From the IMG/VR virus record IMGVR_UViG_3300009788_000102, positions 1-64,000 of that record: 64,000 bases of DNA; one strand, given 5' to 3'. The position numbers and the translations under genes are program-made. Numbering within the stretch: the stretch's first letter is position 1; each line of letters begins with the position of its first letter. Below are positions 2,263-57,902 of the stretch, one piece after another. The notes beneath the pieces were generated by a model. It saw only the letters and a program-made list of their open reading frames with translations. It made no database searches and had not been told where the DNA came from. The stretch comes from a virus.

Positions 2263-2474
2263 TACTGATCCTCTCCCAGACAATCTGGTGGGGTCGGGTT
2301 CGTTTTCTCGTATCGAATAGCCACATGGGTTGGATGTTCTTTGAGCCATAAATCGCGATAGATTTCAGACCAACACGAAGTCTGTACAAAATTGCTGTCA
2401 TTGACGATAACCCATATGTGATCAAATCCCAAGTCTTTGTCTTCTACATCGAAGTGTCTAAGGTCTTTAGCCAT
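2262..2474 (-). CDS. Hypothetical protein, 70 aa
   Basis: Overlaps both neighbours by a base or two, so part of one translational chain. Contains FDHIWVIVNDS and a proline-rich tail. Not recognised. Confidence 0.65.
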   Translation of the reverse strand: MAKDLRHFDVEDKDLGFDHIWVIVNDSNFVQTSCWSEIYRDLWLKEHPTHVAIRYEKTNPTPPDCLGEDQ

Positions 2475-2791
2475 TATGGCTTTTCACCTCTAGTGATCTT
2501 TCCCGACTCATTGAAAAAAGATGCGGCGTGTGATTGGGGTATGTCACTCACTTCTGCCTGCCGCTTTGCCACCACTTCTGACGGAAGACCCTTGAATTCG
2601 GTTTCAGGAAGTACGTGCTTAGCACATTTTTTGCATACTTCCATTTCGATCGTCTCCCATGAACTCACGCAACTGCCGATCTTCGCCATGTGCTCCACTT
2701 TGATCACGAAGAAATCTTCTTCATGCTGAACCGCATCTGGAGCATCAGGTTTAATTTCCTTGTGACATCGATCACAGTGTCTTATTTTCAT
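2474..2791 (-). CDS. Zinc-finger protein, 105 aa
   Basis: CDRCH at residue 6 and VCKKCAKH near residue 53 frame a two-knuckle zinc site around a beta domain. The C-terminus is a flexible charged tail. Probably a small nucleic-acid- or protein-binding module, by inference only. Confidence 0.7.
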   Translation of the reverse strand: MKIRHCDRCHKEIKPDAPDAVQHEEDFFVIKVEHMAKIGSCVSSWETIEMEVCKKCAKHVLPETEFKGLPSEVVAKRQAEVSDIPQSHAASFFNESGKITRGEKP

Positions 2792-2793
2792 TT

Positions 2794-3243
2794 CTATCTC
2801 CCAGTAATAGGGTTGTTGTCACGGATATACTCGAAAAAAGCAAGAGTCTTGTAAGAAGTGGTTTCCATATCAACGATTCGATGGTCCTTAAACACCTGCC
2901 TCATTCCACACTTTCTACACAACAAGGCTGATGTATCATGATCAATCGTGTGTAGATCAAGACTTCCGCCACACGAATGTGTTAAGTACTCGAATCTATT
3001 TTGTTTGCTCCAAGACATGGTTCCTTCATCAATAGCGATCGGATCAAGCTTGACATGTTCTTCTTTTCCGATGCGTTCGCCAGAGCCAGGGCCGATGTTG
3101 AATCTCATGTGACATACGGCGCATATAATGTTCTGACTTCCACCACCACATGGTCCAGCCAAAAATTGGTTCTTAGCACCGCAGTCAGGACAAAGATTCC
3201 TGTTTGTAATCGTATCGTATTCCTTCGTGGTCAAACTATTCAT
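2794..3243 (-). CDS. Double zinc-ribbon protein, 149 aa
   Basis: First ribbon: LCPDCG and ICAVCHMRF near residues 18 and 40, a pattern seen in many phage accessory proteins. Second ribbon: SCGG and LCRKCG near residues 90 and 108. No enzyme motif. Unknown role. Confidence 0.75.
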   Translation of the reverse strand: MNSLTTKEYDTITNRNLCPDCGAKNQFLAGPCGGGSQNIICAVCHMRFNIGPGSGERIGKEEHVKLDPIAIDEGTMSWSKQNRFEYLTHSCGGSLDLHTIDHDTSALLCRKCGMRQVFKDHRIVDMETTSYKTLAFFEYIRDNNPITGR

Positions 3244-3536
3244 TTCTGTTCTCCAACGACAGCCTTAGCTCGCCTGTATTCTGTGACATCCACGCATTTA
3301 CGCTCTTTGCATTTTTCGCCGTTCCATCGGGTACGTCCTTCGTAAGTGACGACGTAAACCGCCTCATCGAGATAATAAAATTCATAATCGACAGGTGTGA
3401 GCGGATCGTGCATGATACATTCGGTCATATATTCGTTGTCGGCAGTGAAGGCAATAAAGTCCTCATAGTACAAAGACATGCCTTTGATAACAAGCAGGAC
3501 ACAGATGATCTTGACGTATGTTGTAGGTTGAAACAT
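3240..3536 (-). CDS. Single-span membrane protein, paralogue of the one at 602-892
   Basis: Start at MFQPTTY follows AAAGGAAT at proper spacing. Membrane helix at about residues 8-22, then an acidic domain with VVTYEGRTRW and paired cysteines before a helical tail. The shared layout with the 602-892 protein indicates an old duplication inside the leftward block. Confidence 0.7.
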   Translation of the reverse strand: MFQPTTYVKIICVLLVIKGMSLYYEDFIAFTADNEYMTECIMHDPLTPVDYEFYYLDEAVYVVTYEGRTRWNGEKCKERKCVDVTEYRRAKAVVGEQK

Positions 3537-3581
3537 TTTTCTATTCCTTTGGCTCAATAATAGATGGAGTCATTTTTTCCT

Positions 3582-3908
3582 CTAAGCTGAAAAACTGCTT
3601 CCGCATCCACAACGATTGGTGGCGTTAGGATTATTGAACACGAATCCACGACCCATGACTTCGTCACTAAAGCCTACCGTTGTGCCATCTAAATACAGAT
3701 GACTCTTGGGATCACAGATAACCACGATACCGTGTTGAGGATAAACCTCATCGTTGTCTGTCTTTTCCGTTGTCAGTTCTAGAGAGTAACGGAAGCCGCT
3801 GCAACCTCCACCCAGGACTCCAATGCGAAGATACAGGTCTGTCGATCTGTTCTTCTCTTCGATGATCTTCTTTATTTCTCGTGCAGCTAATTTTGTTACG
3901 GTGATCAT
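3582..3908 (-). CDS. A-type iron-sulfur carrier (IscA/ErpA/HesB family)
   Basis: 108 aa, the usual family length. The three family cysteines are visible: one in GGGCSGF near residue 36 and CGCGSSF at the C-terminus. The family accepts or delivers Fe-S clusters, so it may load clusters onto phage proteins; the cysteine-tailed PD-(D/E)XK nuclease at 62543 is one candidate. Homologues occur as auxiliary genes in some environmental phages. Family assignment is strong; the in vivo client is inference. Confidence 0.93.
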   Translation of the reverse strand: MITVTKLAAREIKKIIEEKNRSTDLYLRIGVLGGGCSGFRYSLELTTEKTDNDEVYPQHGIVVICDPKSHLYLDGTTVGFSDEVMGRGFVFNNPNATNRCGCGSSFSA

Positions 3909-3922
3909 TTTTTTTCTTTCTT

Positions 3923-4060
3923 TTAGACTATTGCAGCAACGAAACACACGATGACAAGCAGACCAAATGATATAGCCAAGCACCGCGCAACAAATCTGTT
4001 GACTTCTCTATTTATCTGTTTGTCTCTTTCGTTGTCCGGATACGGCGAGTAAATAGACAT
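3923..4060 (-). CDS. Single-span membrane peptide, 45 aa
   Basis: GGAG lies seven bases before the ATG. A charged N-terminus (about 25 residues) precedes one helix (LAISFGLLVIVCFVAAIV) that ends the protein, a tail-anchored layout. Unknown role. Confidence 0.65.
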   Translation of the reverse strand: MSIYSPYPDNERDKQINREVNRFVARCLAISFGLLVIVCFVAAIV

Positions 4061-4096
4061 TACGATCTCCAGGGGAGCAGGACGCAAAAAGGGAGT

Positions 4097-4210
4097 TCAT
4101 ACTAGTCGATTACTAATATGATCCATGAAAGGGACAACGAACTTGATCGCCACAAAGGCTATTATCGCTGTACAAATCACACCGCATAGTAAGGCAGTAA
4201 AAAAACTCAT
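4097..4210 (-). CDS. Single-span membrane peptide, 37 aa
   Basis: Almost wholly one helix (TALLCGVICTAIIAFVAIKF) with a short polar tail. First gene after the promoter at 4267-4295. Too short for a domain call. Confidence 0.6.
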   Translation of the reverse strand: MSFFTALLCGVICTAIIAFVAIKFVVPFMDHISNRLV

Positions 4211-4266
4211 ATCTGTTTCTTTCAAAAACCGTGCGAAGCTCTGGGATCAGGTACTCCTGATACCTT

Positions 4267-4295
4267 ATTATACGTGAAACACACACCCTTGTCCC
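4267..4295 (-). promoter_or_regulatory. Leftward promoter
   Basis: On the minus strand GGGACA, exactly 17 bp, then TATAAT preceded by ACG. It shares this architecture with the promoters at 4542, 39466, 40938 and 54079. It would drive the small membrane gene at 4097-4210 and those beyond. Confidence 0.75.
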
Positions 4296-4371
4296 ACTTC
4301 GTTTCGATTTTTTTCTAGCCGATAATACGGGGGGGTGGAGGAAAGAGAGGGGGGAAGAGCGGGAGTCTACC

Positions 4372-4521
4372 TCACTCATTTTCGAATTGCTTGATGATGA
4401 TGTCTTTCTCGTCTAGATCGTTGAGGCAAGTTTCTAGGTTACGTTCGCTCTCATCCAAGGGACTTAAATCACAATGAACAAGTCCTTTGCGAATCTCGTC
4501 TCGTTGTTTCTTCGTCAACAT
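4372..4521 (-). CDS. Small acidic helical protein, 49 aa
   Basis: AAGGAG at good spacing before ATG. Sequence is charged and helical (LTKKQRDEIRKGL, ending DEKDIIIKQFENE). First gene of the leftward block behind its own promoter, so probably early. Not recognised. Confidence 0.7.
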   Translation of the reverse strand: MLTKKQRDEIRKGLVHCDLSPLDESERNLETCLNDLDEKDIIIKQFENE

Positions 4522-4541
4522 ATCATTTCTCCTTCTATTCC

Positions 4542-4570
4542 ATTATACGTGCAACTGCATCGCTTGTGCC
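4542..4570 (-). promoter_or_regulatory. Leftward promoter heading the left gene block
   Basis: Minus strand reads TTGGCACA, 17 bp after the ACA, then TATAAT with ACG just before it, followed by AAGGAG and the first leftward gene. Same consensus as the four sister promoters in this window. Confidence 0.78.
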
Positions 4571-4880
4571 AAGTGTCTTCGATTTTTTTTGGGAAAAAAG
4601 TGTATGGGGTAAAGCGAATGGGCTCTGGGTTAGATATCATGTACACGAAAAGTTGTAGGCTCTGGCTTTTTTGACCCTGTTGTGCCTAAACCCCCATGGG
4701 TTATCGGACCCACCCGAGTTATCGGACCTATCCATATTTCCGGGCGACCCCCAACCGAGTTCCGTTATCGGACTAGTACCTTCCTTTTGTTATCAGACTA
4801 TGCTATCAGCTTGTTATCAGACCTTGCTTGCTCGACGAGCAAGGCGAGTTATCGGACCAAAAGATTCTTTTCCTTTTCTC

Positions 4881-4909
4881 TTGCTATTCGGTATAACTAA
4901 TGCTATCAT
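4881..4909 (+). promoter_or_regulatory. Rightward sigma70-like promoter
   Basis: TTGCTA, 17 bp, TATCAT, about 40 bp before the first rightward gene. It follows a cluster of six repeat words upstream. Confidence 0.5.
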
Positions 4910-4950
4910 GTAGATAGGATAGAGACACCAAACGAACGAAAGGCAAAGCC

Positions 4951-5070
4951 ATGACCACCAAACTTATCGGACTCGCAGTGACGGCCACTATCGGTTGGGT
5001 CGTTGTTTCTAAAGTTATGGGACTCTTCTCTCATGTAACGTCCGAAATTCAAGCAGCCATCGGTGGCTAG
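4951..5070 (+). CDS. Single-span membrane peptide carrying the repeat word, 39 aa
   Basis: AAAGG precedes the ATG. One helix (LIGLAVTATIGWVVVSKVMG). Two copies of the repeat word are read in frame as LIGL and VMGL, so the DNA word constrains the protein. Unknown role. Confidence 0.7.
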   Translation: MTTKLIGLAVTATIGWVVVSKVMGLFSHVTSEIQAAIGG

Positions 5071-5109
5071 AGTTATCGGACATAACCTCGCAACGAGCGA
5101 AGAATCGAA

Positions 5110-5271
5110 ATGAAGATTATCGGACGACTCGTGATCCTGGCTCTTATCGGACTAACATCCGGATGTGACCTAAAACTTTATCGGACCGCCGAATGCATCG
5201 GAGTTATCGGACCGAACAGTGGCCACTTCGTGTGCTCCGATAACAACAACTGTTATGGGATGGGCCAATAA
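5110..5271 (+). CDS. Small lipoprotein carrying several repeat words, 53 aa
   Basis: Signal peptide with lipobox LTSGC at residue 19 (IGRLVILALIG before it). The mature part has four cysteines. Repeat words are read as IIGR, LIGL, LYRT and VIGP, showing use of two frames within one short gene. Likely membrane-anchored. Role unknown; the next gene starts one base after its stop. Confidence 0.75.
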   Translation: MKIIGRLVILALIGLTSGCDLKLYRTAECIGVIGPNSGHFVCSDNNNCYGMGQ

Positions 5272-5272
5272 C

Positions 5273-5530
5273 ATGCAAATGACATTTGTGAAATATCGGA
5301 CCAAGATCGCCGAAGAGGTTTGCGGTTCCGATAAGTGGTGGTCCGAGTATGCAGTAATTCCAACCATTTGGTTATCAGACTTTCTGAAATGGTTATCGGA
5401 CATCGACGCCGACATCGTAGAAACGACCGATAATTACGACCATGCTCCTAGACTTCCGATAAACTGGCCAAGTTATGAGACGTGCCAGTACGGCATAGCA
5501 GTATCGGACGCTTTCCATTGCGTCCTATAA
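5273..5530 (+). CDS. Hypothetical protein carrying repeat words, 85 aa
   Basis: I chose the ATG one base after the upstream stop, giving coupling; a longer frame would overlap the lipoprotein. Words are read as KYRT, WLSD (twice), VSD and, in reverse orientation, GSDK and TDN. Its stop codon lies in a reverse word (GTCCTATAA). Not recognised. Confidence 0.7.
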   Translation: MQMTFVKYRTKIAEEVCGSDKWWSEYAVIPTIWLSDFLKWLSDIDADIVETTDNYDHAPRLPINWPSYETCQYGIAVSDAFHCVL

Positions 5531-5706
5531 CAAAGACGACGCGCCGAATGGGGTCGAGTTATCGGCCCTTTGCGTTTGCCAGTATCGTGAGGTTATCGGA
5601 CTACCAAGCAGCAGTAGTTATCAGACCAACACCTCGCAGCGACAGTTCTAGTTATCAGACCTTCTCTCTCTCATCTAGTTATCAGACGTTCAGCAGTAGA
5701 GTAGTA

Positions 5707-5792
5707 GTTATCGGACCGCCGTGAGGGCATTATCGGACGGTCCGGGTAATCGTTTGGTCTGTGGTCGTATACGTGAATACTTATAAGACGGT
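5707..5792 (+). repeat. Intergenic repeat unit, copy 1 of 3
   Basis: A spacer segment with two repeat words 22 bp apart, then GGTAATCGTTTGGT and GTGAATACTTAT. Diverged copies lie near 7083 and 8466. Each copy follows a gene block and precedes the next transcription unit. Confidence 0.6.
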
Positions 5793-5882
5793 CCCTGTAA
5801 TAACGACGTTTCGGGGCTGACGGCTAGCCATGGCCATAGTTATAGGACGAAAAAAGAATTTTGTAATAGTTGGTTATCGGGC

Positions 5883-5911
5883 TTGATTTCCTGGTTTTTG
5901 AATCGTATAAT
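5883..5911 (+). promoter_or_regulatory. Rightward sigma70-like promoter
   Basis: TTGATT, 17 bp, TATAAT, followed 26 bp later by the first gene of this unit, whose start codon lies in a repeat word. Confidence 0.7.
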
Positions 5912-5936
5912 GTAGTGAAGCAAAAAGGGGATAATT

Positions 5937-6044
5937 ATGAGACGTTTGCTGACGACAATCAAAGAGTTTTTTTTCGGACCTAAACTTCCGATGACCGCAG
6001 CCGATCTGTACGATGTTACCGGACAGTGGCACAGAAAGGGATAA
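5937..6044 (+). CDS. Small protein, start codon inside a repeat word, 35 aa
   Basis: AGGGG lies seven bases before ATG, and the ATG is the centre of TTATGAGAC. The peptide is basic and hydrophobic (RRLLTTIKEFFFG). The stop is followed at once by the word that starts the next gene. Not recognised. Confidence 0.65.
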   Translation: MRRLLTTIKEFFFGPKLPMTAADLYDVTGQWHRKG

Positions 6045-6046
6045 TT

Positions 6047-6316
6047 ATGGGACTCAGATTAAAATGTCGTTGTGGGCGCGTGAGAAGCCGTTATTCTGGG
6101 ACGTGCCTTACGTGTGATAAAAAACGCCTTGCCGAATGCAAAGCCGAGGCAATATCGGTCGTTTCTACGGGCAAGTGTCCTAATTGCGGACAGGGTTTGG
6201 TCCGAAATTCAGCCATCGCAGGATGGTGGCAATGCGGATGTTATGGGTCCAACAATTTCCGGAATTCGCAGTATCGAGGATTACCGGACTGTTCTTTCCA
6301 GTGCTTTACGGAGTAG
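6047..6316 (+). CDS. Zinc-ribbon protein, 89 aa
   Basis: Start codon lies inside TTATGGGAC. Two ribbons: CRCG with TCLTC near residues 8-24, and CPNCG with WQCGCYG near residues 47-70. The block KCPNCG-x7-NSAIAGWWQC with a phenylalanine/cysteine tail resembles a small protein found in many phages. No function known. Preceded by AAAGGG. Confidence 0.8.
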   Translation: MGLRLKCRCGRVRSRYSGTCLTCDKKRLAECKAEAISVVSTGKCPNCGQGLVRNSAIAGWWQCGCYGSNNFRNSQYRGLPDCSFQCFTE

Positions 6317-6320
6317 TATT

Positions 6321-6398
6321 ATGGGACGCGAAAAACAATTCTGGATGATGGTTATCGGACACACGATTATCATCACAGTTCTCGGACTATGGTTCTAA
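6321..6398 (+). CDS. Membrane peptide, start codon in a repeat word, 25 aa
   Basis: Almost one helix (FWMMVIGHTIIITVLGLWF). Starts in TTATGGGAC and ends just before an AAAGGAGG site for the next gene. Small but fits the tiling of the unit. Confidence 0.55.
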   Translation: MGREKQFWMMVIGHTIIITVLGLWF

Positions 6399-6409
6399 AG
6401 GAGGATATT

Positions 6410-6667
6410 ATGGGACGTGCAACGATCACGATTCCGGCGACCGATAATTGCCCAGAGGCGCACGAGACTAACTTATCGGACCAGATGGCGATGAGTTATG
6501 GGACGCTGTTCGCCAGGACGTTATCGGAACAAGATGGCTTCGTTACAGTAACACTTACATCAGGTTCGATACGGCTTATCGGACATGATACGGTGCGTAA
6601 CCGAATCACTATCGGACGTTTACATACGAATTATCGGACGGCACAACTGGCAATCAAGGAGCGATAA
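6410..6667 (+). CDS. Hypothetical protein saturated with repeat words, 85 aa
   Basis: AAAGGAGG at six bases before an ATG inside TTATGGGAC. At least six further words or near-words are read as TDN, NLSD, SYGT, TLSE, RLIGH, TIGR and NYRT, in all three frames. This is the clearest sign that the nucleotide word, not the peptide, is under selection. No domain recognised. Confidence 0.75.
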   Translation: MGRATITIPATDNCPEAHETNLSDQMAMSYGTLFARTLSEQDGFVTVTLTSGSIRLIGHDTVRNRITIGRLHTNYRTAQLAIKER

Positions 6668-6668
6668 T

Positions 6669-7025
6669 ATGTTGGTTTTTCACTATTCTCCACATGGGAT
6701 TTCGATTATTCGGACGTACTCTCGTACTCCGATAACAAGTGGCAATTATCGGCTCAGCAGGAAGCCGGAAGGTATCGGACGTTTCCATATGGTCCAGAAA
6801 CTACATTGGTTTTGGGACCAAAACAAGGTTTCCATTGAATGTTATCAGACGTTGGATAACACCGAAAAACGGGAGATTATCGGAATGTTGGATGCGCTCA
6901 ACGGTGAGCCGGTACGACCGATAACTGACATGAAGCGACGATGGGAAGAAATTATCGGACCGATCGCGGTTCGGCATCTCGAATTGTTTTCGGACCATGA
7001 GCCCATCTCGCCGATGGACCGATAA
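6669..7025 (+). CDS. Hypothetical protein carrying repeat words, 118 aa
   Basis: ATG lies one base after the upstream stop. Words appear as IGR, CYQT, EIIG and EIIGP; the stop TAA is the end of a reverse word (GACCGATAA). Helical middle with KRRWEEIIG. Last gene of its unit; a terminator follows directly. Not recognised. Confidence 0.7.
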   Translation: MLVFHYSPHGISIIRTYSRTPITSGNYRLSRKPEGIGRFHMVQKLHWFWDQNKVSIECYQTLDNTEKREIIGMLDALNGEPVRPITDMKRRWEEIIGPIAVRHLELFSDHEPISPMDR

Positions 7026-7038
7026 CTAGAATAACACT

Positions 7039-7067
7039 GGGTCCGAATTATCGGACCCTTTTCTTTT
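7039..7067 (+). terminator. Intrinsic terminator made from repeat words
   Basis: GGGTCCG, loop AATTAT, CGGACCC, then TTTTCTTTT. The right arm with its loop is one repeat word; the left arm is its reverse complement. Confidence 0.85.
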
Positions 7068-7082
7068 GCGCCGATTAGAACA

Positions 7083-7172
7083 TTATCGGACCGTAGGGCC
7101 GTGAGTTATTATAGGACGTGGCCGGTAATCGTTTGGCGTGCGTATGTGTGGCCGATAAGTATTCGGATTGGG
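7083..7172 (+). repeat. Intergenic repeat unit, copy 2 of 3
   Basis: Two words 26 bp apart, then GGCCGGTAATCGTTTGG and GATAAGTATTCGGATTGG, aligning with the copies near 5707 and 8466. Confidence 0.6.
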
Positions 7173-7317
7173 GCTCAGAATCGCGGTTTTGTAGCGCGGC
7201 GAAGTTATGGGGCGTGAGGATTATTGGGCGTGGCATATAATGCACGCATGGGGCAGCAGGACAGAAAAGGGCACATTATAGGACGAAGAAAGTTTTTTGG
7301 ATTTATAGGTTATCGGC

Positions 7318-7346
7318 TCGACATTCCGGCGCAGGTATCCTATACT
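7318..7346 (+). promoter_or_regulatory. Rightward sigma70-like promoter
   Basis: TCGACA, 17 bp, TATACT, about 29 bp before the next start codon. Placed like the promoter at 5883 in the preceding unit. Confidence 0.6.
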
Positions 7347-7374
7347 TCAGTGTAAGCACGAAAGGGAATAAATT

Positions 7375-7686
7375 ATGGGACTCATCGACTATTCGGACCT
7401 AGTGGCAAGCGGCAAAATATCGGACGTTAAATCCGATAGTCAAGCGCCCGGAGGCGAGACAATTATTATCGGATGGATAATGGGATGTGTCGCATTTCCG
7501 ATCATCATCTTTATCGGACTCTGGTTGATGGCGCATTCTTTTGAAGTAGCAGTTTATGGATTTATCGGACTCGGCCTGTGGGCGAGCGCACGTTATGGGA
7601 CTAACAACAGCTTGGTGGCCCGATTACGTTATCGGAAGTTCAGCAAGCGGGAACGTCTGATAATCGCGAGGCGATTGTCGGAATAA
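7375..7686 (+). CDS. Two-span membrane protein carrying repeat words, 103 aa
   Basis: Start codon lies inside TTATGGGAC. Two helices, about residues 30-52 (IIIGWIMGCVAFPIIIFIGL) and 58-72. The tail is basic (RYRKFSKRERLIIARR). Words are read as FIGL (twice), IIIG and RYGT. Role unknown. Confidence 0.75.
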   Translation: MGLIDYSDLVASGKISDVKSDSQAPGGETIIIGWIMGCVAFPIIIFIGLWLMAHSFEVAVYGFIGLGLWASARYGTNNSLVARLRYRKFSKRERLIIARRLSE

Positions 7687-7706
7687 TTATAGGACGGGAG
7701 TCAATC

Positions 7707-8075
7707 ATGGCAGTTATGGGACAGACAGGTCGAGTCGTATTATCGGACACAGTGCTCCAGTTCAAGAGCGCCCGAAAAAAGACAGTCCGATACAACTACG
7801 TCCGAGTACAGAATGGGTGGTTGTGCCAAGTTCTCGGACCTTTCCATAGCGCACTTTATGGGATGTGCAGCTTCGCAACAAAGAAATATCGGGCTAAAGC
7901 AGCACTGAAAAGACGGCTGGCGAACGATTATCGGTACTTCGGCTGTCTGTTGTTTTCGGACGTTGACGACGCCGATAATGTCGGCAAAGTGGACCTGAGA
8001 TTATGGGACCAAATCAGTTCGGGTCGTCCTATAATCAAGACACCGGGCGAGCTTATCGGAACCGCTGGCATGTAA
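7707..8075 (+). CDS. Hypothetical basic protein carrying repeat words, 122 aa
   Basis: GGGAG lies six bases before this ATG; an alternative start three codons in would again be a word-embedded ATG. Basic N-terminal half (SARKKTVRYNY, KKYRAKAALKRR) and acidic C-terminal half. Not recognised. Confidence 0.72.
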   Translation: MAVMGQTGRVVLSDTVLQFKSARKKTVRYNYVRVQNGWLCQVLGPFHSALYGMCSFATKKYRAKAALKRRLANDYRYFGCLLFSDVDDADNVGKVDLRLWDQISSGRPIIKTPGELIGTAGM

Positions 8076-8143
8076 TATCGGACGGAGAGCGGGTGGGGTT
8101 ATCGGAACCTCGCCCCTCTTGGGCCGATAACAAGGAGTAGACC

Positions 8144-8401
8144 ATGTGTAGATATAGGACCACAGCCGATGATTTCCTGATTATAGGACCAGCCTTCGGG
8201 ACGTTGTGGGAACGTCCGGTAATTGACGGAATTCTGCGAGACAGGTTACCCGACCATACCCAGGACCATTTGGAGTTATCGGACTGTGCGGTCGGGACGC
8301 TGGAATGGGTGTTATCGGTCCTTCCAACTCGGAAGATTATCGCTCTTTGTGGCGGTTATCGGGAGTATGCGAATCGGCACATTATGGGACCAATCCTTTA
8401 A
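8144..8401 (+). CDS. Hypothetical protein carrying repeat words, 85 aa
   Basis: AAGGAGTAGACC precedes the ATG. Words are read as YRT, IIGP, LELSD, LSVL and HIMGP. Last gene before the second word-derived terminator. No domain seen. Confidence 0.7.
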   Translation: MCRYRTTADDFLIIGPAFGTLWERPVIDGILRDRLPDHTQDHLELSDCAVGTLEWVLSVLPTRKIIALCGGYREYANRHIMGPIL

Positions 8402-8423
8402 GGGGTGATAACTAAAAAGATCA

Positions 8424-8453
8424 GGGGTCCGAATTATCGGACCTTTTTCTTTG
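8424..8453 (+). terminator. Second intrinsic terminator made from repeat words
   Basis: GGTCCG, loop AATTAT, CGGACC, then TTTTTCTTT. Same design as the terminator at 7039. Confidence 0.83.
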
Positions 8454-8465
8454 CGCAGACCAGAA

Positions 8466-8555
8466 AATTATCGGACGTTGGGCCGTGGGCGATTATCGGA
8501 CGTGGCACATAACAGTTTGGTTTGTATGCGTGGACACGAATACTTATCGGATAGG
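8466..8555 (+). repeat. Intergenic repeat unit, copy 3 of 3
   Basis: Two exact words 25 bp apart, then ACAGTTTGGTTTGTATGCG and GAATACTTATCGGAT. No gene follows this copy; instead a phased word array lies downstream. Confidence 0.6.
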
Positions 8556-8584
8556 GCCGAGAATATCGTATGGCGCAGAATGGG

Positions 8585-8776
8585 TTATCGGACCAGCCAC
8601 AAAGCAGTTATCGGACCGCCATGCCCGTTATCGGGCCAAGCGGGTTTTTCGTTATCGGTCCCTGTGTTATCGGACGTTCGTGGACAAATGGTTATCGGAC
8701 TCTTCCTCGTCTTGCTTATCGGACCTTCCTCCCCCCAGAGGGTTATCGGACGTAGCGCGGGGCGGGATTATCGGAC
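8585..8776 (+). repeat. Phased array of nine direct repeat words
   Basis: Words start at 8585, 8608, 8628, 8652, 8667, 8692, 8716, 8743 and 8768; two are one-base variants. Seven of the eight spacings are 20-27 bp, close to two helical turns, as in iteron or cooperative binding-site arrays. No open frame here reads as a protein. Confidence 0.8.
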
Positions 8777-9169
8777 CGTTCCGGGAATCGTTATGTACGT
8801 GTGATAATATCATGGTTTTTGACCCAATTAACCGTGATTTCGTTATAGGGCGTGCTTTTTTATCGGAATCGACCGAAAATATCGCGATTTTAACGGTTAT
8901 AGGACGCTTTTTGCCGATAATTCGCGCATTATAGGACTCGCGTAACACATCTTATAGGACTTTCCGATAAGAATCAGCTTCTAGGGCGCGATAAACGGGA
9001 TATTATAGGCAATTGACCGATAAATGATCTCAAAAAGCGGACGTAAATCAAATCATGCATTATCGGACAAAGTGCGATAATATCGACGATTGACGGCTCT
9101 CAGGGCCGAAAATTTATTTTCAATCCGCGCTTGACGTTTTGTATAACTTTACATAGAGTATTATGTAGG

Positions 9170-9253: not shown

Positions 9254-9379
9254 TAAGTGGCCGACGCAAGGTTGGTCCGAATAAGTGATGTTCCGATAAC
9301 GAGTCTACTAGGCCCGTCCCATAAGTCAGGACGGTGTAGTCTCGGCTCTTGGGGCGGCAAGTCAATACGGGAGAAACGT

Positions 9380-9712
9380 ATGAGCATTGACACCGCTGTC
9401 AAGAATGATGCCCAAGGAACGTCCGAGAAGTTCGGTCAGGATGCGTTTTTGGCAAACGCCGTCACGTATCGTCAGCACAAGCGAATTGTCGATGCGTGCT
9501 CGGGGTACGATAACGTCGATGACGCCATCGCAGGTCTGACCGCAGCGTGGGAATCGCTCGAAAGTCAGGTCGTAGAGGGTGGTCAGTACACCCCCGACCG
9601 TGAACTGGGTTTCGGGTCCGATAACGCGGCCACGATCGCAGAGACCCTTATGGGACTCAGGTCGACAACCGGCGCGACGCGCAAGGCGTTCAAGGATTTG
9701 GGCAAGGTCTAG
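9380..9712 (+). CDS. Hypothetical protein, 110 aa
   Basis: GGGAG before the ATG at MSIDTAVK. Acidic, helical, with FLANAVTYRQHKRI and an alanine-rich middle. Follows the repeat field and has only one reverse word (GTCCGATAA). A 10-bp GC hairpin (AAGCGCC/GGGGCGCTT) lies about 35 bp downstream and may end the transcript. Not recognised. Confidence 0.75.
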   Translation: MSIDTAVKNDAQGTSEKFGQDAFLANAVTYRQHKRIVDACSGYDNVDDAIAGLTAAWESLESQVVEGGQYTPDRELGFGSDNAATIAETLMGLRSTTGATRKAFKDLGKV

Positions 9713-10703
9713 TCTCGTCGGTCCACAGTCCGAGTAGAGTGTCTGACTCGAAGCGCCTCGAATCGTCGGGGCGCTTTACGATGGACATTCTGACATAAGT
9801 CAGGATAGAGCCGCTTGTCAGGGTAGCACCCTGTCGTTATAGGCACACTTAGAATCAGTGTCAGCGGTTCCCATAACCAATTTCAGCGGGAAGTCCGATA
9901 AGCGTCGGGTATCCCCGGAATGGGTTGGGGAGTAGGTCTGTAGTCTCCGCAGTACGGTCGGCGACGGCGCAGGAAGCGCGTCAATGGTCTGAACCGGGAT
10001 CGTCAAGGCTATCGGTCAAAAGCCAGTCCAAGAAGCGGCAAAACGCAGAGTCTGAATTGCAGACTCAGTCTACGTCAATGACGTGGGCGGATATAAGTGA
10101 CGGTTCGTCTACACGATTCCTTATCTGTCTGGCAAGGTCCGGGTGTCAGCCACCGTGGGAGCAAGACAGCAAAGGGTCTTTGTCGTGTATTACTATCTCT
10201 CGAATCGTCTCGGGAAACCGCTCGTCAGTCAGGTGATAGGCTCTTTTTTTGTCGTGGGATAGGGGCTCATTCGCGCAAGTCTTGTAAACTAATCCTCTTT
10301 GATTTCTCTCACAATGGTCGGACGAAGTTCGCTGAAACTTCCGATGGTCGGCGGGTCGGATATGAGGCACGGTTCAATTCTTGTCTTGAGGCCACATTCG
10401 ATGGCGCACAGCGGGCAGTTGTGAGTCATTGGAAAGTTGGGATACACCCGAACGACACGACACGACGGCGGATCGAATAAACTGGATAACCGCACTGGCG
10501 CGGCAGTCTCGATTCGGATAGTCGTTAAAATAAGGATACATGAAACCATCCAGGGAAGAAACAGATTGCCAGATTATATCTGCCTGGATGTTATCCAAAA
10601 GAAAGTAGAGGAACGGACCTACGGGTCGGGAGTCAGCTACTGCGGGCTAATAACTCGCAATAGTCTGAGTGCGCGTGAAGGTGGGTTGGCGCGTGTCTTT
10701 TCT
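9713..10703. other. About 1 kb without a convincing gene
   Basis: Open frames here have shadow-like composition. I see several perfect hairpins: CTGAC-ATAA-GTCAG, CAGGGT-AGC-ACCCTG, GAGTCTG/CAGACTC around 10050, and CATCCAGG/CCTGGATG around 10550. ATAAGT(C/G)A recurs near 9253, 9280, 9321, 9794 and 10094. It may be a structured RNA or a replication or regulatory region; nothing decides. Confidence 0.45.
10289..10429 (-). CDS. Possible small minus-strand zinc protein, 46 aa
   Basis: Reads MTHNCPLCAIECGLKTR and ends TIVREIKED, with CPLC-x3-C. No ribosome site and no promoter visible, and it opposes its neighbours. Kept only as a possibility. Confidence 0.28.
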   Translation of the reverse strand: MTHNCPLCAIECGLKTRIEPCLISDPPTIGSFSELRPTIVREIKED

Positions 10704-46325: not shown

Positions 46326-47336
46326 GTGAAAGAGCGCAAACTGTGTTTCAATGATATCTTGCTTGTCCCGCACTACTCAACCCTTGGGTCTAGAACTTCA
46401 CCAAGTACTGCAACCAAGATAGGATCAGTGGAGCTAAAAATACCACTCATCTCTGCGGCTATGGATTCTATTACAGGAAAATACATGTTGGTAGTCATGG
46501 ATAAGATGGGCGGTCTAGGTATCCTGACCCGACATATCAACCTGGACGACCGTACAGAACTAGACACCCAAATGAAAGAAATCAAATGGGCTCGTGACCA
46601 GGGTGCCAAAAACGTTGGATGCGCAATAGGGTTGAAAGGAGAAATACCTTACAAAGTAAAGATGCTGGCAGATATTGGCTGCAACGTCATCTGTATCGAC
46701 GTGGCACACGGCGACCACGTAAAAATGTACGAAACTATCGATTCTCTATCTAGGGTGAGAGAGAAATATCCGTTCACACTCATGGCTGGTAATGTCTGCA
46801 CTCCCGAAGCAGCAATCAAATTCGCCCAACACGGAGTCGATGCGATCAAGGTTGGTATCGGCCCAGGCGCTGCTTGCACCACACGAATAGTCACAGGATT
46901 CGGCGTCCCACAATTTTCTGCAATACAAGAAACATGCAAAGTAGTAAGTGGCCAATATGGAGTTTCAATTATTGCAGACGGAGGATTGCGAACCAGTGGA
47001 GACATGGTAAAATCAATATGGGCTGGCGCTGATGCGTGTATGATCGGATACATGTTGGCTGGTACACGAGCAACCCCAAGGATTGGGGATAAACGTCTCT
47101 ATCGAGGCATGAGTAGCCGTGCGGCTTCTGGTAGGCCGGATATAGCACCAGAAGGTATCGAGATAGAGATGGAGGACAAAGGCAGGACAGAAAAGGTCAT
47201 TGAGGACTACGTTATGGGAATCAAGTCTGGTCTCGCCATGGGTGGTGCGATGAATTTTGTAGACTTACGTGAGAATGTGGACTACGTACTCGTTAGTCCT
47301 TTGTCGATAGAGGAAACCTTACCAAGGGGATCGTAG
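46326..47336 (+). CDS. IMP dehydrogenase/GMP reductase family enzyme, 336 aa (GTG start)
   Basis: NDILLVPHYSTL start, AMDSITG substrate loop, GIGPGAACTTR catalytic cysteine loop, IIADGGLRTSGD and YRGMSSRAA flap. CBS domains are absent. Loop residues VTGFGVPQ lean to IMPDH, size leans to GMP reductase. It would shift purine pools towards or away from GMP. Confidence 0.92.
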   Translation: MKERKLCFNDILLVPHYSTLGSRTSPSTATKIGSVELKIPLISAAMDSITGKYMLVVMDKMGGLGILTRHINLDDRTELDTQMKEIKWARDQGAKNVGCAIGLKGEIPYKVKMLADIGCNVICIDVAHGDHVKMYETIDSLSRVREKYPFTLMAGNVCTPEAAIKFAQHGVDAIKVGIGPGAACTTRIVTGFGVPQFSAIQETCKVVSGQYGVSIIADGGLRTSGDMVKSIWAGADACMIGYMLAGTRATPRIGDKRLYRGMSSRAASGRPDIAPEGIEIEMEDKGRTEKVIEDYVMGIKSGLAMGGAMNFVDLRENVDYVLVSPLSIEETLPRGS

Positions 47337-57050: not shown

Positions 57051-57902
57051 ATGGTTTCTTTGCCGAGTAGAATTACCCCTATTTGTTTGGTCTTGATGTT
57101 GTTTGTTGGAGTTATCTTTCTCGCCGCAGAAAATAAACCGGCAATTTCCAGTGTCCCAGAAAAACAATGTAACTTACACGAAATCCAAAAAGTTGATCAG
57201 ATAGCAATAAAACAACGAGAAATGCGAGACCCTATCGTCCGAGTAGAAACACGTCAAGCATTAGGTTCTGGAACTATATATGAAAAACTCGACACAGGAA
57301 CAAAGAACTTATTTGAATATAGAGTATTGACCAACCAACACGTAACCCAGACAAGAATGATGTTTCCATCTGATGCTGATTTCTTGACAGGAAAGCTAAT
57401 CATATTACCCATCGACACAGGATGCAGCATAGATGTATTTGATCACAAAAATCAGAAACAAAAGAGATATGTAGTCAAAGTTGTTGCAGAAAATCCCTAT
57501 TTAGACTTGGCTATATTGTCCTTTGAAACAGACGACCCAATAACAGTCGCCTTATTAGCTACGGATGAGATACTAGAAAGTATCAGAGTTTTTGATAACG
57601 TTTTTGCATTAGGGTGCCAACTAGGAATGCGTCCAACGCCAACATTTGGTATCATATCTGATATTATTTCTGGAGTCACCAGACAAGTAAAATGGATGCT
57701 ATATGGAACAACATCACAAATCGCTTCTGGCTCAAGCGGCGGCGGGCTTTTCGTGGAATATGACGGACATTACTATCTTATAGGCATCATATTACGAGCG
57801 GCAGTAACACGGGATCACCATATTATGCCACACTTAGCGAATGCAATTTCTCTATCTACAGCAAAAAATTTCTTAGAAGAAAACAGAGTAAGCAAGGAGT
57901 AA
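57051..57902 (+). CDS. Secreted trypsin-like serine protease, 283 aa (copy 1)
   Basis: Signal peptide (ICLVLMLFVGVIFLAA). Chymotrypsin-fold triad: His in LTNQHVT (about 98), Asp in YLDLAILSF (about 152), Ser in ASGSSGGGLF (about 230). HtrA-like without a PDZ. GGAGG upstream. The next gene is a tandem copy. Confidence 0.88.
   Translation: MVSLPSRITPICLVLMLFVGVIFLAAENKPAISSVPEKQCNLHEIQKVDQIAIKQREMRDPIVRVETRQALGSGTIYEKLDTGTKNLFEYRVLTNQHVTQTRMMFPSDADFLTGKLIILPIDTGCSIDVFDHKNQKQKRYVVKVVAENPYLDLAILSFETDDPITVALLATDEILESIRVFDNVFALGCQLGMRPTPTFGIISDIISGVTRQVKWMLYGTTSQIASGSSGGGLFVEYDGHYYLIGIILRAAVTRDHHIMPHLANAISLSTAKNFLEENRVSKE

Follow-up and report, generated by a model that had tools for sequence, protein, structure and literature searches.

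Why would a phage carry one nine-base word dozens of times, in one orientation, through the genes, starts and terminators of a single region? The question is raised by the uncultured phage contig IMGVR_UViG_3300009788_000102, a 71,032-base IMG/VR virus record of which we analysed a 64,000-nt stretch (hereafter the window, whose coordinates are used throughout). There, the word TTAT[CGA][GA]GAC fills a field of more than 4 kb (Table 1). We suggest that this word is probably a half-site of Xer recombinases, corresponding to the XerC arm of the dif site; that the field as a whole is a dense one-way array of such half-sites loading a recombinase is a proposal to which we give about an even chance.

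The word field and its phage clade

The word is real, polar, dense and confined. The pattern occurs 65 times on the forward and 8 times on the reverse strand of the window; 64 of the 65 forward matches lie at 4701-9060 (the remaining one at 9648), in agreement with the some 63 copies reported in an earlier note on this sequence, and the field contains 3 reverse matches. The exact form TTATCGGAC is found there 36 times forward and never in reverse. A chance origin is excluded by dinucleotide shuffling, as 100 shuffles gave a mean of 2.93 matches on both strands of the whole window (standard deviation 1.67, largest 9) and none reached the 73 observed. This mean amounts to about 0.1 match on one strand of 4.4 kb, the expectation already given in the note; the density in the field is 15 words per kb. 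The reported near-absence elsewhere holds past 9.9 kb, where there are just two matches, both reverse (18990 and 49346), but not next to the field, where three reverse words cluster around the adjoining gene (Table 1). The word can be written TTAT-NR-GAC, with nearly uninformative flanks except for a purine at -1.

Over 15 fields, 43.5 kb in total, the full word occurs 397 times forward and 37 times in reverse; this tally includes each of the close relatives L137 and L138 but not L147. The heptamer TTATCGG is likewise polar when followed by AC (194 forward, 10 reverse), whereas without AC it exceeds expectation in either orientation, with 150 copies forward and 100 in reverse where three genomes would predict 2.1 per strand (17 and 14 in the field of the window), so that the one-strand character claimed earlier belongs to the full word and not to its core. 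Sites prefer spacings of 24-27 and 33-36 bp and avoid 28-32 bp (similar pairs collapsed; L147 and L138 left out), and part of this preference stems from related intergenic modules.

Misassembly of the field is ruled out, because contig IMGVR_UViG_3300028610_000987, which may or may not be an independent sample of the same phage, matches the window over 18,072 bases with 8 mismatches (99.956% identity), and because divergent relatives have fields of their own. Thus G002 (IMGVR_UViG_3300037560_000207), 53% identical in a shared gene, has a field of equal polarity. Further fields came from a scan for three successive words (giving at least those among the matches listed) and from whole-contig word counts. 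The orphan gene downstream of the field, p9380, is present in the window and in 11 of 20 loci fetched, in 3 more contigs recovered by alignment search and also in L293 and L299; at least 17 distinct contigs have the p9380/field locus, the window and its near-identical contig being counted once and one of them, G022, having no more than a truncated tandem array. The alignment search, blind to words, returned 12 loci (9 already in the p9380 alignment). Over the upstream 6 kb, each has 8-64 words forward and 1-6 in reverse, against 0-1 forward-strand control matches per whole locus; the three new ones have 30 forward and 1 reverse (L153), 8 and 3 (L157) and 31 and 1 (L160). A few strays apart, the forward words mostly cease 0.35-1.2 kb ahead of the p9380 stop, and in 10 of the 12 contigs reverse words lie within -480 to +210 of this stop.

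The clade contigs G001, G002, G006 and G011 have many core genes in common. G001 encodes a terminase and a portal of tailed-phage type, the terminase being about 25% identical to the best cultured ones; no cultured-phage match was obtained for p7707 (the most widely conserved field gene), p9380, the field or two arrays. In all three long contigs examined (G001, G002, G006), the cumulative GC skew reaches its minimum within two 4-kb bins of the upstream edge of the field, and gene direction also switches there.

Match to dif and a Xer-type recombinase

A candidate identity for the word is found among dif sites. In the accessible part of a dif survey (PMC2731167), a XerC arm of the form GTCC[GCT]ATAA is listed for five of seven delta-proteobacteria (Desulfovibrio ATGTCCCATAA, Geobacter ACGTCCCATAA, Anaeromyxobacter ACGTCCGATAA, Myxococcus AGGTCCGATAA and Syntrophus TTGTCCTATAA), which would also give a host clue if the match is meaningful. 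The word TTAT[C/A/G]GGAC is the reverse complement of these listed arms, with the same base variable in both. This base is C in 254, A in 64, G in 61 and T in 27 of 406 words, and 314 of 407 words have exactly the XerC-arm form.

Complete sites occur in the shorter arrays of other phages described below. In 37 of their loci, GTCYNATAA-Nk-TTATG is found 6 times at k = 6, the spacing of dif, and 0-2 times at every other k of 2-12. Each of the six complete dif-like sites (GTCCNATAA, exactly 6 bp, TTATGT; L041, L087, L088, L101, L283, L302) sits among 6-18 words within 400 bp, and these arrays thus hold a complete dif-like site amid XerC half-sites. Moreover, a tyrosine recombinase (PF00589) is encoded once in each of the 6 long clade contigs tested (E 3e-37 to 2e-42) and was found in 0 of 10 other word contigs, which may be incomplete. 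The recombinase of the window matches the XerD (4e-66) and XerC (6e-64) profiles end to end, as well as solved XerC-like and XerD chains. That a nine-base match arose by chance is made less likely by the variable position common to both, by the spacing of exactly 6 bp and by the presence of a recombinase gene.

If the half-site identity is right, it is rather likely that the array acts as a recombinase-loading platform. A Xer recombinase, either the phage's own or host XerC, would bind the half-sites, which would load it and raise its local concentration at the origin-like switch. The recombination served would join phage copies, as in multimer resolution or circularisation, or involve a chromosomal dif. 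The other phages would presumably offer host XerCD a complete dif-like core ringed by XerC half-sites, and a conserved host enzyme would explain why one exact word recurs in phages with little else in common. More tentatively, and just short of even confidence, we propose that tailed phages may have found a new use of Xer through XerC half-site arrays, which one clade with its own Xer enzyme would scatter over kilobases of its early genes even where this overrules codon choice. The resulting locus, coated with recombinase and lying beside an orphan protein and a giant structured RNA, would serve resolution, integration or the capture of host Xer. Many uncultured phages would then converge on a conserved host enzyme, and the constraint of protein coding would yield, over kilobases, to a signal for recombination.

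Several observations weigh against the Xer half-site array. The dif match stems from a literal search of papers for the word string, where matches are mostly chance (the string also appears in primers, in the accessible part of an integrase study, PMC4928290), and both the spacing test and the recombinase test were devised after the dif idea. Bdellovibrio and Desulfotalea are listed with dif lacking the GTCC[GCT]ATAA arm (PMC2731167, accessible part), 93 of 407 words (TTATCAGAC, TTATTGGAC and others) differ from the listed arms, and five of the six complete sites belong to related phages (G010, G013, G014, G031; L101 by its look). The recombinase of the window stays below the NCBIfam equivalog cut-offs (223 vs 330 bits for XerD, 216 vs 335 for XerC); with its end-to-end match it is therefore called Xer-like and not named XerC or XerD. 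In the clade itself, 15 contigs have no strict dif-like site at spacing 6 between field and p9380 inclusive, nor do the sequenced pieces examined of G001, G002, G006 and G011, and none of 406 words has CATAA at the XerD-arm distance of 6 bp (6 of 409 in other phages). With relaxed arms, 4 sites appear at spacing 6, yet spacings of 9 and 10 yield 4 and 3 as well. Finally, the half-site reading accounts neither for the preferred 24-27 and 33-36 bp spacings nor for the non-polar core (reverse TTATCGG without AC), and half-site arrays inside genes are, to our knowledge, unknown for Xer.

The relaxed sites at 6 bp lie in L132, L136, L153 and L157. Those of L132, L153 and L157, around p9380, end with TTATGCTAGT(C/T), and sites of this TTATGCTAGT type are possibly the clade's own core site.

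Half-sites lacking a complete core, in very high copy number in an early region where any DNA gains words, would also suit a decoy that titrates or blocks host XerC and thereby disturbs chromosome dimer resolution or a Xer-using competitor. A decoy, however, needs neither the polarity seen in the 15 fields nor a fixed place, the clade encodes its own recombinase, and the arrays of other phages retain a complete core; we therefore consider it unlikely.

Words within genes, promoters and transcripts

The note had held that words are read in all frames, so that proteins have adapted to them, and that they run through starts and terminators; both statements are supported. Among orthologues of one field gene, words fall in frames 1, 2, 0, 0 in L153 and 1, 2, 0, 1 in L137, genes thus adapting to the word, and by eye, words overlap ATG starts at 5935, 6045, 6319, 6408 and 7373 and two hairpins with T-runs (Table 1). 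An HNH gene, whose family has 344 cultured records, lies within the fields of G002 and G007 and carries 4 full words in each (8 and 7, respectively, on the sense strand within one mismatch), while the matched regions of five cultured homologues (distinct phages among the matches listed) have none. Word load thus follows location, and these sequence comparisons indicate that selection acts on place, genes residing in the field acquiring words. These word-carrying genes, of HNH-AP2 homing endonuclease type, have settled in the field of two phages, at 10781-11314 of L010 and 1557-2060 of G007. In p7707 orthologues, some words are at constant codons (VIGQ, LSD) and others at new codons and frames.

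Paralogous intergenic modules, composed of a terminator, two words and a GGGCCGTG box, lie in the field at 7021-7151, 8407-8533 and around 5708, the first two being 78% identical.

Such duplicated modules, together with G022, whose array is only tandem (23-bp units, cut by the contig end), could point to a functionless word that spread by mutation or mobility. We find this scarcely credible, as by eye the words of the HNH gene and p7707 occupy codons that align with each other, in most cases with no insertion of three residues, and as polarity and confinement are kept across divergent contigs.

In the window clade, word polarity follows transcription, as first reported. This does not extend to other phages, in 34 loci of which 141 words run along and 193 against the coding direction (a crude assignment, with open reading frames of at least 90 aa taken as genes). 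The clade polarity would fit an operator or stoperator-like control, in which Xer or another protein, bound to the words, would repress or road-block transcription of the early genes. L5-type stoperators are a precedent (PMC9283540 and PMC6550527, accessible parts), -35 boxes directly adjoin a word core at 5883 and 7318 of the window and in G002, G007, G008 and G009, and by eye, words lie between the terminators and promoters of successive genes in G034, beside a second word TTGATAGTCGCC, and in the -35/-10 spacer in L045 and L296. Promoter-abutting cores are nevertheless no commoner forward (8 of 73) than on the reverse strand (6 of 59), and orientation does not track coding direction in the other phages, which makes such control quite unlikely.

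The same polarity, the reverse words close to a structured RNA and the fold of p7707 are the arguments for an RNA word, i.e. a site for an RNA-binding protein, an endoribonuclease or a complementary RNA. The p7707 model is alpha-beta-beta-beta-alpha, a topology like that of the double-stranded RNA-binding domain (dsRBD), with weak matches (predicted local distance difference test, pLDDT, 66.9); the best Z in the structure search is 4.9, unrelated folds scoring alike, the best Foldseek E is 0.036, and Pfam gives no dsRBD match. Against an RNA word, six leader words (with a CTTGC..GCAAG hairpin between words 5 and 6) precede the first promoter-like site, the complement of the word in the structured RNA is not strictly kept in seven relatives (GTCCGATAA, GTCCGATAC, GTCCGTTAA, GTCCGGATA), and other arrays hold complete dif-like DNA sites. 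RNA accessibility at words is nothing special (342 sites of 11 fields, p = 0.51). Nor is there clear hairpin pairing with CCGATAA, as words at hairpin distance from it are only slightly in excess: at 15-30 bp, two 15-bp bins count 19 and 17, compared with 1 and 0 at shorter distances and an average of 12.4 in the remaining bins. Neither result supports an RNA word. Of the RNA-level and polar DNA signals (recombination among them) between which the note had not chosen, the DNA recombination word is favoured because of the dif match, and an RNA word appears highly improbable.

Word arrays in other phages

Viral contigs contain 63 stretches with three exact TTATCGGAC in about 100 bases. Once the window clade and tandem repeats are set aside, short TTATCGGAC arrays are left in about 40 phage contigs, several of them near-identical, at a local G+C of 36-67%. 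G010, G013, G014 and G031 are related, with arrays of roughly 12-22 words in both orientations, and a DUF7178 gene lies between or within the arrays of these four and G034. The DUF7178 gene has relatives in mycobacteriophages, which we take to be those of Cluster A. In L297 (G034), TTGATAGTCGCC accompanies TTATCGGAC upstream of repeated promoters at 2277-8950, and TTGATAGT adjoins words in L043, L288 and L291.

A protein family common to all word phages was not supported by a comparison of 13 labels. Among families that include the window clade, the most widespread extend to three further labels, either G035, G037 and group 2 or G031, G035 and group 2. The most widespread of all covers five labels without the window clade, and of the G001 family profiles tried, 18 match any other group and none more than two. 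Some genes are shared between groups (57 query matches between the window clade and group 2, 40 between the window clade and G035).

Orientation to DNA ends was tallied in 35 loci, leaving out window-clade contigs (the window-clade-like L303 slipped in), contigs below 15 kb (L018, L051, L101, L106, L129, L298), mixed arrays (L041, L066, L081, L088, L302) and tandem ones (L046, L073, L080, L099). In 15 of 35 contigs, vs 3.6 expected, no more than 2 kb separates the array from a contig end, whatever its orientation, a proximity that we take to reflect assembly breaks. Words pointing to DNA ends are unsupported, as only 17 of 35 are oriented to the nearer end (16 of 34 without L303).

These counts bear on the possibility that the word serves replication or partition, or resembles Chi, and is read by some host or phage factor unrelated to Xer. 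The GC-skew minimum, at which the field lies in each of the three long contigs examined, would suit it, and Chi gathers near the origins of some phages (PMC3784561, accessible part). However, skew also follows gene direction, words lack orientation to the nearer contig end, the 15 words per kb of the field compare with 0.2 quoted for Chi, and a metagenome-assembled genome (MAG) joined to a clade piece, L229, has no word excess (TTATVRGAC 119 and 117 vs 219 and 236 for the control). We regard this explanation as very unlikely.

Searches for hosts gave few leads. A scan of genome contigs for p9380 in prophages was empty, and the 82 stretches with three words in genome contigs are mostly tandem or protein-repeat DNA in appearance. 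Of ten genomes chosen for three words together, several have more words than copies of the reversed pattern, a control not matched for composition; the two stand at 92/5 in G049, 10/1 in G047 and 50/19 in G055. G049, a Sedimentisphaerales MAG, reaches its 92 with TTATCGGAC, with no longer repeat around 20 places inspected. In CP070695.1 (L229, G029), the first ~94 kb are a clade piece (terminase 69% identical) joined by an N run to a Heimdallarchaeota MAG 'chromosome'; this join is probably a binning or concatenation error and gives no safe host clue.

Comparison with known systems

Several known systems invite comparison. DnaA boxes (TTATNCACA) have CACA where the word has RGAC. The stoperators of Cluster A mycobacteriophages have a 13-bp consensus of the GGTGGMTGTCAAG type, unlike TTAT-NR-GAC with its little conserved flanks. 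They resemble the words, which are polar in the window clade, in being asymmetric repeated sites, some near promoters, and the DUF7178 gene of some word arrays has mycobacteriophage relatives. A Cluster A genome has more than 20 and up to 30 stoperators, mostly in promoters or short intergenic spaces and some in genes (PMC6550527, accessible part). Chi in phages is also a polar, over-represented word, near the origin in some (PMC3784561, accessible part), but its density is about 75 times lower, and the orientation tests give it no support. By such analogies, stoperators and Chi are weaker parallels than dif/Xer.

For dif/XerCD, the likeness lies in the XerC arm listed for several delta-proteobacteria (PMC2731167, accessible part), in the complete sites with a 6-bp centre of other arrays and in the Xer-type recombinase of the window clade. 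In contrast, dif is one 28-bp site near the replication terminus, whereas the field has dozens of copies of a single arm, in genes, at the skew minimum, and the 6-bp centre and XerD arm TTATGT are absent from the clade fields. As these contain no strict complete site, we regard the field as half-sites and not as dif sites.

The statement that no described phage system shows this pattern stands for the field in the literature searched, so far as the accessible parts go; it does not stand for the enzyme, as filamentous phages use dif/XerCD with pseudo-dif sites (PMC3025954, PMC5357621). Host-Xer-using elements (IMEX, e.g. filamentous vibriophages) are similar in that phage DNA has a dif-like sequence, and ten other word contigs likewise gave no tyrosine recombinase. 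They differ in that the IMEX attP has one or two dif-like sites, where here half-site arrays occur in tailed-phage contigs, and the window clade has its own recombinase (6 of 6) instead of relying on host XerCD. The accessible parts of PMC5357621 and PMC3025954 do not mention a half-site array for IMEX, and the portions of the literature searched do not describe arrays of half-sites that lie within genes, occur in contigs of tailed phages and go with a Xer enzyme of the phage.

Neighbouring elements and other features of the window

The p9380 family is a helical protein with a GYTP..FGSDNA motif. Pfam, PHROG, PDB, cultured-phage and genome searches gave no convincing match (no PDB fold at E <= 0.001; PHROG matches weak and single, best 0.0019). 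Between p9380 and a tRNA-Asp gene sits an undescribed structured RNA of about 0.9 kb, without Rfam match. Its 206 consensus pairs in seven relatives include 97 with changes on both sides vs 40.4 (standard deviation 4.3) in shuffles, and when partners are slid, pairing falls from 90.8% to 35-40%. A seemingly divergent version is found in G004, L157, G007 and G011.

Table 1. Coordinates of the word field, its components and neighbouring features in the window
Feature	Position	Strand	Remark
Word field	4690..9070	+	64 TTAT[CGA][GA]GAC forward, 3 reverse; each the reverse complement of dif XerC-arm-like GTC[CT][GCT]ATAA
Leader with 6 words	4701..4857	+	Upstream of first early promoter-like site (4881-4909); kept in relatives
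Promoter-like site, word core abutting -35	5874..5911	+	TTATCGGGC abutting TTGATT-17-TATAAT; sequence pattern
Small field gene, 85 aa	6410..6667	+	Relatives in G002, G004, G016
Terminator-like hairpin, 3' arm is the word	7039..7066	+	By eye
Promoter-like site, word core abutting	7310..7346	+	TTATCGGC abutting TCGACA-17-TATACT; sequence pattern
Small field gene, 103 aa	7375..7686	+	Relatives in G002 and G006
p7707, 122 aa, most widely conserved field gene	7707..8075	+	Orthologue comparison, structure model
Terminator-like hairpin, 3' arm is the word	8424..8452	+	By eye
Reverse-oriented word TTATGGGAC beyond field	9316..9324	-	Pattern count
p9380, orphan gene downstream of field, 110 aa	9380..9712	+	Conserved across clade contigs
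Reverse-oriented word TTATCGGAC within p9380, FGSDNA codons	9616..9624	-	Pattern count, p9380 comparison
Large structured RNA 3' of p9380	9713..10640	+	Covariation; relatives aligned
Reverse-oriented word in structured RNA region	9893..9901	-	Pattern count
Xer-type tyrosine recombinase gene, 293 aa	54128..55009	+	Relative in 6/6 long clade contigs tested

Elsewhere, the window encodes an iron-sulphur cluster biosynthesis protein (3585-3983, reverse strand; Pfam Fe-S_biosyn, E 4e-19), an IMP dehydrogenase/GMP reductase (46326-47333) and a trypsin-like protease (57051-57899).

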